Shown here: in pieces, positions 58,001 through 63,005 of the stretch
Numbering within the stretch: position 1 is the first letter of the stretch
Layout of the letters: each line of letters starts with the position of its first letter
Origin: Cliona cf. orientalis
Lineage: Eukaryota > Porifera > Demospongiae > Clionaida > Clionaidae
Assembly (NCBI GenBank): GCA_963930775.1
Contig: OZ005703.1
Span: forward strand, 7,068,001 to 7,132,000
Direction: 5' to 3'
Length of the DNA: 64,000 nucleotides
Program-made: the position numbers and the translations under genes
Notes under the pieces: model-generated
The model's input: only the letters and a program-made list of their open reading frames with translations
Databases searched by the model: none
Told to the model about the DNA's origin: nothing

Positions 58001-61000
58001 CCCACCACGATAAGAACTATCCAACTACACTACCGTCAATGAATCAATGATTTAATCACACTCGTTCCAAGCCACATTGATTTCTACTCACAATAATCGA
58101 TAACAGGTGCATAAAAATTCTATTGTAATAACTACGTATCTTACTGGCAGTGGCTCCTCTGTCAAGAGTGTTCATCCCACCACTGCTGTCGTCGACACCA
58201 TAGTTGAAGAAGGCCTCAAGGTAGGGGAGCACGGTCGTCCCCCGGTAGCGATCCTCGCTGTCTGGGTAAGGCTGGAACCTCACGATGTCCGCTGGGAGGG
58301 GCTTTGAGTGCTTGTACACAAACCACCTGATCAGCGGGGGGAAAGGAAGGAAAGGTACATTGTACATGTATAATAATTATGATAATTGTTTCATGGTGCT
58401 CGACTTTGTATTTAATACAAACACAACTGACAGTCACACATAATTATTATCTTAGTTTTGTACACCTTTTTATTATAATGTTATTGTTGCAGCAGCATGG
58501 GACAAGTACATGGGATCTAGCTCCATAGACTAGCTAGTGGCAAGATAGATAATGTAGATAACCCAGGCACCCCCTCCCCCCCCCCCCCCCAACCCCTGTA
58601 TGAAGCATTGCAAGTGCTAGCCAGGATAGACCAGCTAAGGGTGGGACAGATGGATAGATCTGGGTAGGGACAGGGAGAGGTCAGCGATGAACATGGAACA
58701 TACAATAAAACAAAAGCTAAAAAGCTTAAGCTGGGGCCACCACCCCTTCCACCTACCTACCTACCTACCCACCTACCTAGTACAATGGGACAGAATAGCA
58801 TTGGCATTCACGTCGAGTTAAAAGGTAGCCAGCCACGGAACATGCTGCATACATGTCGTTCTCCCACGCTCTACACTGGTTGGGTAGCGCCTACGTACAT
58901 GTACATGTACATGTACATGTATAGGTACAGATATGTTGGGCCTACGAATTAGATACGCATACACCCCTATCCTTACTTGGAACTACATACACTGTCCTTC
59001 CCAGTTTATACTTTTGAGCGCTAACTATAAGGGCCGTCAGTTGGCATCTCCCTTTGATCTTGAAGTAGGTGGAGCTTGAAAGCTTTGATGTGGTTACTTA
59101 TTCCTTCAAACAAGGATATCCTCCCTCTACTCCTTAAGAAAGCTATGCTGGACTCCATGACTGTATAGATGTACATATATGCACTGCAATTATAGCAATA
59201 ACACTAGGCTCCAGAATTATTGCATGAATTATACTCTTGTCTAAAGAGAGAAATTCCACAGATTACCAACCTGTTTACCAATTTATTTGTTGTTGTTGTC
59301 GACATAGTATTACATGTACATAATATGATCGTCTGAATTTACTAAAGTAATACAACCATTGGCAGTGTTTATACACAGAGGTAGTGTCATTATCTATCGC
59401 TCTCAGCTTAGCGGTGTAATGGGATACCGCTGTGGACATAGACTCGGTGCTTTGAGCCAATGAGCTACTTTGGTGATCGCTTTGAAGGTTCATTGCCAAA
59501 GAGATAGCGCTACAACTGAATTTAATTCATTAGTTGTATATAGCGGAACCATTCTAAGAGAATAGCCCTGATATGTACATAGCTACAGTGTACATGAATA
59601 TCTACATATGTAGCTCATATACAGGTAGTTGACCTCTGTTCATCATTGGCCTACTTTATGATGACCCAACCCCTTCCCATAGCCGGCAAATTGCCTATAA
59701 AAACTTTGGTTGCTAGGCAACTTCCAACAAATAATAATATTGTCAATGGCTTAAGCCCTTGGTATTGTACAGTCTACACATGTATTCATGTCTATTCCTA
59801 TATATACACGAATCTAAACATCCTAGCATGCATAATCCTATTAAAAGCAAAAAAATTTACATAATACAGAGTTCTCCCTAAAGCACGTTAGAGTGGTGCT
59901 GCATTACCTAGATGTGCCTTAATTTTAATTTTATTTCCTTTGTGAGGTGGTTATTTTTTAAATATAAACCACGATTTCACTTTTGATGACTTTCAACCAT
60001 TAATACCACACTGGATTAAAATCTAATGAGCTGGGGAGAACCCTACCATTGTTCTCCCCAGCATACCTAAGGCATGTCGGCCCAACAAGCCTTCAGTACA
60101 GAATTCCCTTTGATGTGGGAATAGTGCTAAAATCCACAAGCTTTGATGTGGCCACAGTCTCCACCCAAGCTATGCCCTATTATCATGCTTTAAATTTTGC
60201 CTGGGGGTTATGCATAGGGTAGAGAGAGTGTAGTGCAGTGAGTGGATGAGCTTACAGGTGTGTTCTGATCTCTGGAATGCTAAATCTCTGCCCGGGGTCT
60301 TTTCTGAGCATGCCCCGTAGTAGGTCTTTTAGGTGAGGTGAAAGGTCGGGAGGTATCTCGAAGACGCCCGTCGCTATGACACCAAACAGCCTGTAGAGGT
60401 TGTCACCCTCAAAGGGAAGCTTGCCAGTAGTGAAATTAAATCTGCATGTCAAAAAGTACTGTAGTGACTGTGACGACCATTACCATATCAATCACATTAG
60501 GTATAGGTCGTCAGAAAAGCAGGCCAGGTTCAAAGTACAGCGTCAATAGTAGGTATAGGTCGTCAAAGTAATAGAGTAAGGGAATGAAGAGGAGAGGAGA
60601 GAGAGAGGGGGGGGGGGGGAGAGAGGGAAGAAGGAGAGAAAGACTGAGAGACTACACTAGATTTACAATGTGACTCCAGCCGCCCATATGTCTGCCTTGA
60701 AGCCCGAAAAAGAGTCGTGTCCCAGTGCTATCTCGGGAGATTGGAAGGCCGGGGTGCCCTGAGATGACGAACACTGGTCACTGCGCTCAAACTGACCCAG
60801 CTCCTACGAAAAAAGGATAACAACATTAACCATACCAATCACTAGCTGCCAACATTCGGTCAAAAAATACTCCAGAACACCATATACATGTATGTTGACA
60901 TTGTCACCACGATAAATTTTCGCCAATTTCGTCACTTGCTATCATTGGCGAAAATTTAACCCGGTTGAGCCCAAAATCGCTATTGCAAGAATATTAGCGG

Positions 61001-62878
61001 ATTTAAATTTGGCAGTTCGGTACAGGATCGCCATACCTATACATGTATATGAGAGTAGGAAATTTTGGCAGATTTTAATTTGGCGGTTGTAACATAGACC
61101 GCCAAACTGCCAAATTTACATGTAATTCCCCACCAAATTTTCTGGCTATACGGTATAAAAAAATTTAGCTATATTATTGTACATAGCTCACCTCAGCTAC
61201 TCCAAAGTCACTAATCTTGACAGTTTCGTCAGTCGTGAGCAGCAGGTTTCCCGGCTTGATGTCCTTGTGGATAACCCCTCGCCCGTGGAGGTACTCCATC
61301 CCATCCATCAGCTGAACAAAGTACTTGTGGGCCTGCCACGTTGGAAACTTGTTCCCGGGAGCTTTGTCGAGCATCTCCTGTAGACCTCCGACACAGTACT
61401 CCAACACCATATACGTGGGGCAACCAAGAGTCAAGAAAGTAAACTTCTTAAAAACTGATGCATTATAATAATATTGTATTACATTATGGTGAGGGTAGAG
61501 TACTACATGTATGTAAAAGCATTGTAGCAAGCTGAACAGATTCAGGAGCATTACAATTCCCTGAATTCCGTACGCTTTTAAAAATTAGCTTAGAAACAAA
61601 CACATACACATAATTATACTTAGATTCACACACATACGTATACACCCTAATACACAAGTATGCAGAGAGAGAGAGAGAGAGTCAGTAAACTGAAGGAATG
61701 AAGGAAGGCCATCAAACAGCAATCTGATAACAGACAAAGCTCCAAGCAAAAACTGTAAACAAAACATAAAATACCACTCCAGCAGCATGTCACACAAGCA
61801 CAGATATCAGCTAGCGCATAATATAATATATATACCCAAGTAATAATTCACACGTACAACACATCAGTGGCGTCTCTAGGCAATTGTTTAACTGGGTGCA
61901 AGTTATCGAAAGTAACCGCACAGGTGGATGCATAAAGCTAGCAAAAGTGTACTATAGTATACACGACATGCATCCCCCTGGCGACACCACTGCAACACAT
62001 TATGATTATACACGTATAATGCAAACAAAAGGTAATGTATAGTGTACACTAGTACAGTGGAACCCCTCTATAAGGACACCACTGAAATGAGGATATCTCC
62101 TTTAATCAGGTTACTTCAAGCTGTCCCAAGGGTGTCCGGAATAAAGAGGTTCCACTCTATTTATCAACAAAGCATAATGTATGCAATGAAATTAATTCCT
62201 ACTCCATAGGACACACTGAACCCAGGCAGTGGGGAAGAAGACAATATTAGCCACAGGTCTATAGCCACAATAGTGGAGTAGCCCTGGAAATGCACAGAGG
62301 GCAGAACCACAACTCAATTAGGAAGAGGTTCATTATAATATACTATATACAGGACTCATGGGGGACCCTTGAAAAAAATAAGGACATCTCGAGCCAATAA
62401 ACAATGGCCCAAAACAGAGAGGTACATGTATATACCACTGCAGAAGAAGGCCTTGGTTGAATGTGATCCAACACATCTCTCGTACATAATGTATCTACTC
62501 CATTCCCCAATAATTACACTGTACATCGATGCTTATGTATATACATAATATTGTACATGCTCCAGATTACATCGGTGGAGTCGGAATAGTTCCGTTTGGC
62601 TACAAGGGGAAGTTGTGGACGATCAACTGTTTACAGGTTTCAGGCAGATACGTAGCTAGATAGATAGACCATGTAGGGATATTGGGAAGCCACCTCATCA
62701 CAATGCAAGTCCAGACCATTGCTTATAGGGAGCAGTACAATGTATAGTATTGACGTTGTACATACAAAGTATGCATTTCTAGCTGGAGCAACTGTTACTG
62801 TAGTACACAATATATGCTTGCAGGGGGGGGGTATGTTTATGTTGGTCCCCCCCCCCCTCTCCCTCTCTCTCTCTCTCC

Positions 62879-62910
<32 letters not shown>

Positions 62911-63005
62911 TCCAAGGATATAGTTTCTGTTTGTCTGTGTCCTCAAACGTCTCTATCAAACTGATGACATTCTTATGGTGCACCCTTTTCAATATCTTGA
63001 TCTCC
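55025..63005 (-). CDS. STK11: LKB1 / STK11 serine-threonine kinase (first exon outside the window)
   Basis: Seven exons: 63005..62922, 61414..61192, 60803..60667, 60441..60256, 58326..58145, 57097..56948, 55146..55025; about 361 residues. The ATP-binding N-lobe exon is not in 63006-64000 and must lie beyond. Kinase landmarks: [31 protein letters not shown], catalytic loop [71 protein letters not shown]; these are LKB1-specific rather than general kinase. The C-terminus is basic ([13 protein letters not shown]) and ends CAQQ, a CaaX-like prenylation box comparable to CKQQ in vertebrates, with a possible basophilic-kinase serine just before it. LKB1 works with STRAD and MO25 to activate AMPK-family kinases. 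The first intron seen is of the AT-AC type. Confidence 0.95.
55147..60255. other. LKB1 downstream introns
   Basis: Introns 55147-56947 (1,801 bp, with a MITE at 55261-55464), 57098-58144 (1,047 bp) and 58327-60255 (1,929 bp). A sequence at about 56143-56230 resembles 1674-1760. No further exon is recognisable. Confidence 0.6.
55261..55464. mobile_element. MITE, TATAGCCGGAAA family copy 2
   Basis: A 204-bp relative of 37790-38016, flanked by TA at 55259-55260 and 55465-55466, in an LKB1 intron. Ends and internal AAATTTGG modules are diverged. Confidence 0.65.
60471..60513. repeat. TGACGACC micro-hairpin, copy 3
   Basis: A 43-bp inverted repeat, TGACGACC at 60471-60478 and GGTCGTCA at 60506-60513, in an LKB1 intron. 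The right half (GGTATAGGTCGTCA) is repeated at 60552-60565. Confidence 0.6.
60900..61153. mobile_element. MITE, TATAGCCGGAAA family copy 3
   Basis: Shares GAGCCCAAAATCGCTATTGC and GCGGATTTAAATTTGG-type blocks with the other two copies, and the end GGCTATACGG followed by TA (61154-61155). The 60900 side is diverged or rearranged, so that border is approximate. Confidence 0.6.
61415..62921 (-). other. U12-type AT-AC intron of LKB1
   Basis: A 1,507-bp intron. On the gene's strand the 5' splice site is ATATCCTT (62921-62914), the intron ends CCCCAC (61420-61415), and a U12-like branch motif TTTCTTGAC lies at 61438-61430, its adenosine about 16 nt from the end. No AG acceptor fits the conserved join; with AT-AC the protein reads KQKL/YMVLEYC, matching human KQKM/YMVMEYC. 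Confidence 0.88.
62053..62159. mobile_element. Short CAGTGGAACC element
   Basis: About 107 bp with inverted ends TACAGTGGAACCCCTCTATA and the complement of TAGAGTGGAACCTCTTTATT; lies within the LKB1 AT-AC intron. TA-type flanks. Noncoding. Confidence 0.65.

Follow-up and report, generated by a model that had tools for sequence, protein, structure and literature searches.

Minor introns are evolutionarily conserved with respect to their host genes, their positions and their subtypes (PMC8280824), and a survey of such introns covering over 3000 genomes is available (PMC10639083). For their removal, U11 and U12 take the donor and the branch site jointly, after which U6atac displaces U11 and forms the active core with U12 (PMC8199999). 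The closest described system to the locus presented here is intron 2 of human STK11 (LKB1), a U12-type intron of 823 bp located at r.374_375 (c.374|375), with Met125 as the first residue altered upon its retention (PMC12366057), and AT-AC according to the title of a cited paper. Among the literature matches listed, which comprise titles and the beginnings of abstracts and few subscription papers, neither a minor intron in a sponge LKB1 gene nor a sponge U6atac sequence was reported; the word 'sponge' does not occur in the main texts of PMC10639083, PMC6865273, PMC7367187, PMC2846911 and PMC2831892, nor does 'Amphimedon' in those of the first three. Given this known conservation (PMC8280824), a minor intron in sponge LKB1 is an attractive yet expected case, deep minor-intron conservation being already known, and the part of our data that specialists might not expect is a C at position 14 of U6atac.

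Here we describe in the sponge Cliona cf. orientalis what we consider, with a probability of roughly 95%, to be a U12-type (minor-class) AT-AC intron in LKB1, orthologous to human STK11 intron 2. The window, i.e., the whole stretch of DNA analysed, comprises 64,000 nucleotides (7068001-7132000) within a genome of 216.8 Mb in 149 contigs, and the features of the locus are compiled in Table 1. Judged by homology, the gene carrying the intron is LKB1, because the joined sponge protein scored 395 bits against human STK11 (residues 111-414), compared with 162 bits for the best non-STK11 kinase. No second LKB1 copy was found among the 150 of 1116 genome candidates that were scored, and the other matches with E <= 1e-20 were two kinases with 37% and 30% identity. 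Exon 1, which measures 614 nt when counted from the putative start codon, is located just outside the window, at the window-equivalent positions 64853-64240. The exon upstream of the intron had been given as 84 bp in a preliminary description of this DNA and indeed measures 84 nt (63005-62922), which we take to be the length of human STK11 exon 2 as well. Going by the human exon lengths, sponge exon 3 presumably corresponds to human exons 3 and 4, exon 4 to human exon 5, and exon 5 to human exons 6 and 7, and two human introns further downstream presumably have no counterpart in the sponge.

Table 1 Features of the LKB1 locus (positions in the window) and further loci of the same genome.
Feature	Location	Strand	Length	Details	Basis
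LKB1 exon 2	62922..63005	minus	84 nt	ends CAGAAACT; phase 2 at 3' end	alignment to human STK11
LKB1 exon 3	61192..61414	minus	223 nt		
LKB1 exon 4	60667..60803	minus	137 nt		
LKB1 exon 5	60256..60441	minus	186 nt		
Next LKB1 exon, start only	58200..58326 (start 58326)	minus			assigned by eye
Putative U12-type AT-AC intron	61415..62921	minus	1507 nt	starts ATATCCTTGG, ends TTGCCCCAC	
5' splice site ATATCCTT	62914..62921	minus		+9 = G	
Branch-site element TTTCTTGAC	61430..61438	minus		presumed branch A = 61431	predicted pairing with U12 stretch
3' splice site AC	61415..61416	minus			sequence
Short U12-type intron, GTF2H3	L042			GT-AG	junction homology
Short U12-type intron, OXCT1	L044			GT-AG	junction homology
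Short U12-type intron, V-SNARE	L040			GT-AG	junction homology
Short U12-type intron, myosin VII	L052			AT-AC	junction homology
Short U12-type intron, EIF2A	L053			AT-AC	junction homology
U6atac, first copy	L007:1501-1625			C14	
U6atac, second copy	L008:1501-1626			C14	

Both ends of the intron, the initial AT and the final AC, are fixed by the reading frame together with homology. Its donor, previously called a perfect U12 AT-AC donor, is perfect over the eight positions of ATATCCTT but deviates at the ninth, where it has G and T is usual in U12 donors. The branch-site element TTTCTTGAC differs by one change from the consensus TTCCTTRAC, and the distance of 16 nt assigned to it earlier is correct when counted from the presumed branch A (61431), but not for the element as a whole, which is separated from the 3' end of the intron by 15 nt. 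The last bases of the intron are CCCCAC, and the stretch at its 3' end reads TTTCTTGACTCTTGGTTGCCCCAC. While ATATCCTT occurs twice per strand in the 64 kb window, TTTCTTGAC followed by YAC 6-16 nt further on occurs once, namely at the end of the LKB1 intron, and the combination of donor, branch site (loosened to TTYCTTRAC) and AC within a span of up to about 2 kb was found zero times on the plus and once on the minus strand. The probability of these motifs appearing by chance at the homology-fixed boundary is approximately 2.4e-5 (donor) x 0.0007 (branch site) x 0.06 (AC), independence assumed.

Comparison with the human gene places the two introns at the same point. The sponge intron interrupts codon 233 past its second base, and Leu233 is aligned opposite residue 141 of chain 8vsu_C, which we take to be STK11 Met125, as this chain has 449 residues and is 16 longer than the human protein of 433. 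The alignment contains a single gap, approximately 80 residues upstream of the intron point, and none around or past the junction. With the human side taken from PMC12366057, codon (sponge 233, human Met125) and phase are identical, which upholds the claim that the intron occupies the same codon as the human U12 intron, and the presence of an AT-AC intron at 61415..62921 is in turn borne out by the motifs, the homology-fixed boundary and this match in codon and phase. Human and sponge introns are alike in gene, codon, phase, AT-AC termini and U12 type, whereas they differ in length (823 nt vs 1507 nt) and the sponge intron has its own features in the G at donor +9 and the branch site TTTCTTGAC. 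Moreover, all five sponge LKB1 junctions determined match the human ones in codon and phase, where for junctions other than c.374|375 and c.735 the human positions are assumed from exon lengths. The latter two positions are given in PMC12366057.

From the comparison of both genes, common descent of the sponge LKB1 intron and human STK11 intron 2 is most likely. We regard it as improbable that only the position is ancestral and that a minor intron with GT-AG ends acquired AT-AC termini separately in the human and the sponge lineage, since two parallel switches are less parsimonious than zero and AT-AC introns reportedly convert more rarely than GT-AG ones, although subtype switching as such is on record, with 36 clusters containing both subtypes (PMC2831892). 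It is considerably less probable still that the major spliceosome removes the intron at GT-AG sites close by, with the AT-AC motifs being incidental: the LKB1 donor has C at +5, in contrast to the G carried at this position by the U2-type AT-AC introns of sodium channel genes (PMC2831892). A scan of the boundaries, covering donors between 44 nt upstream and 59 nt downstream and acceptors between 120 nt upstream and 59 nt downstream, did yield 26 in-frame, stop-free GT-AG pairs, mostly from a GT repeat just within the intron, but 24 of these alter the length of the kinase-domain stretch that AT-AC use aligns gap-free to human, and the other two keep the length but swap 13 residues or turn MVLE into PWMC (human MVME); none of the 26 in-frame pairs reproduces the conserved protein. 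Finally, that a minor intron was inserted twice, independently, at one and the same base is barely credible in view of the five out of five junctions agreeing with human in codon and phase, part of the human positions being presumed. Returning to common descent, we infer from the two lineages compared that the intron may have been AT-AC without interruption since the ancestor of sponges and bilaterians. A minor intron relevant to disease, together with its rare termini, would then most likely date back to a common ancestor of sponges and humans; the sponge intron accords with the view that minor introns of the AT-AC subtype resist conversion, and offers a clean marker for the phylogeny of animal introns.

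The preliminary description had proposed looking for minor-class snRNA genes in the same genome, and this search succeeded for three of the four RNAs: two genes for U12 (113.7 and 112.4 bits, with 147 of 149 bases alike), one for U11 (95.4 bits) and two for U6atac (106.7 and 79.7 bits) scored above the respective Rfam cut-offs, whereas for U4atac one candidate was obtained with 48.0 bits vs a gathering cut-off of 53. The 5' end of this candidate is predicted to form a 10-bp stem II with U6atac from the same genome, in which bases deviate from the consensus on both strands, and a 7-bp stem I between the two RNAs is predicted as well. In the same searches for U11, U12, U4atac and U6atac, none of 14 control genomes gave a match, and U6atac patterns were, as expected, absent from bacterial and archaeal genomes and viral contigs. 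All six snRNA genes show an AACC(C)ACA-type element and a TATA-like box upstream (read by eye), and the branch-pairing stretch of U12 as well as the AAAAGGG stretch of U11 are identical to the Rfam consensus. Among protein components, the CHHC finger was matched four times, one match (L085) resembling U11-48K by its motif, and this short family also matched one of the 14 control genomes. The SCNM1 zinc finger was not found in the sponge genome, which is uninformative, as there was no match in the control genomes either. For CENATAC, which reportedly favours the splicing of minor introns with AT-AN termini (PMC8280824), three collinear matches cover model positions 1-148 of 330, and two of them end in a stop, as at exon ends. 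Together, the sponge resembles other animals in its U11, U12 and U6atac genes and in having CENATAC and a U4atac candidate, and differs at U6atac position 14, which is C in both copies vs G in the consensus. With this gene set, the sponge would have a functioning minor spliceosome. About 0.6 kb from one of the U12 genes we additionally observed a long hairpin (L001:2236-2364) matching microRNA precursor models below cut-off; these models presumably belong to plant families, and the hairpin is probably a MITE-like inverted repeat.

With these components, LKB1 transcripts would be spliced at the AT-AC boundaries by the following route. U11 would pair with the CCUU of the LKB1 donor and U12 with UUUCUUGAC, then U4atac/U6atac.U5 would take over from U11 at the donor and the intron would be cut out, the exons joining CT and G to a leucine codon. 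As the termini of the intron are AT-AC, CENATAC would be expected to assist its removal. In the sponge, the contact to donor position +6 would be made in the U11 step only.

This last point derives from the U6atac sequence itself. Both copies read GAAACGAGAGAAGG compared with GAAAGGAGAGAAGG in the Rfam consensus, with C instead of G at position 14 and G at position 15, and to our knowledge, as in the Rfam consensus, G14 is near-universal. Searching the genome with position 14 left open and up to three mismatches revealed only the two C14 copies and none with G14. Lying within 2.7 kb of each other and being nearly identical in the sequence upstream, the copies are not independent. In the second one (L008:1501-1626) the upstream elements are kept, the 3' stem-loop is absent and a T5 run follows directly after GGCAA; this copy may be in decay, or may give rise to a truncated RNA.

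In CHO cells, U6atac GG14/15CC gave partial rescue of a CC5/6GG donor, and rescue was almost complete when U11 GG6/7CC was added (PMC4980772); because of these rescue data, with the pairing being antiparallel, G14 of U6atac is expected to face donor +6. The pairing of U6atac G14-G15 with donor C5-C6 is not intact in the sponge, where C14 is unable to pair with +6 of the LKB1 donor, and the U11 bases facing +5 and +6 are intact. Of the two G-C pairs between U6atac and the donor, the sponge has apparently lost one. With C14 in place of G14, the predicted energy of the isolated duplex was -4.0 instead of -5.5 kcal/mol for the LKB1 donor, and -4.1 instead of -8.2 kcal/mol for the GTF2H3 donor, values that serve as a rough guide, as some of those for C14 come from another pairing register. 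At the same time, +6 is C in LKB1 and in five other homology-supported minor introns of this genome. We lean slightly towards the reading that the sponge minor spliceosome works with the G14 to C exchange in U6atac, one G-C pair being naturally gone, and that its introns keep the +6 C, apparently for U11. A dramatic interpretation of C14 is tempered by the report that minor introns can have T in place of one C of +5 or +6 (personal communication in PMC2846911), so that some weakening of this contact is tolerated elsewhere as well. If the reading of a U6atac short of one G-C pair is true, +6 would be held by U11 alone and the helix between U6atac and the 5' splice site would be looser than mammalian suppressor experiments suggest; if genuine and expressed, C14 would represent a natural experiment separating the share of U11 from that of U6atac in 5' splice-site recognition.

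A genome-wide search for patterns of short U12-type introns, in which any base was allowed at +6, gave 92 places vs 95 in the reversed control, i.e., no overall excess. We examined 70 of the 92, the other 22 consisting of four with C at +6 and 18 with another base, several of them visibly repeat copies. In 69 distinct candidates, with near-identical repeat copies still among them, a purine (R) at +1 was present in 23 of 28 with C at +6, 3/10 with G, 9/20 with A and 8/11 with T (Fisher, C vs rest, p = 0.006). A compensating move of minor introns to G at +6, which would have suited C14 of U6atac, was rejected. The joined frame was open for at least 20 residues on each side in 12 of the R+1 candidates with C at +6 and in seven with another base. 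Pfam, applied to nine of these 12, gave four matches above cut-off across the junction (OXCT1, EIF2A, GTF2H3, V-SNARE), and the solved-structure search, covering five of the nine only, supported OXCT1, EIF2A, GTF2H3 and myosin VII and returned no match for V-SNARE. Six of the seven candidates with another base (five distinct peptides) were searched with Pfam only, without any match across the junction, the zinc finger match of L073 lying wholly past it; the comparison is hence uneven, and by Pfam alone amounts to 4/9 vs 0/5. One C+6 peptide outside the 12 (L048) had no Pfam match, and L049 (DHHC, below cut-off) was left out of the count. For the V-SNARE intron, a GT-AC reading was discarded, as using an AG located 6 nt beyond gives a better protein when judged against relatives.

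Besides the minor introns, the genome contains a gene resembling silicatein, a protein of siliceous sponges, which supports a siliceous sponge as the source of the DNA. In two papain-family loci (L110 and L114), serine takes the place of the active-site cysteine (GASYAF), and a 57-residue stretch of L114 has silicatein alpha as its best solved relative (90.5 bits), followed by an engineered-looking entry 'CATHSILICATEIN' (73.7 bits) and papain-family proteases at about 72 bits and below. Clusters of intron-rich papain-family matches, some of them with silicatein-type serine active sites, are located at C19:4508728-4580694 and C12:3668297-3674660.
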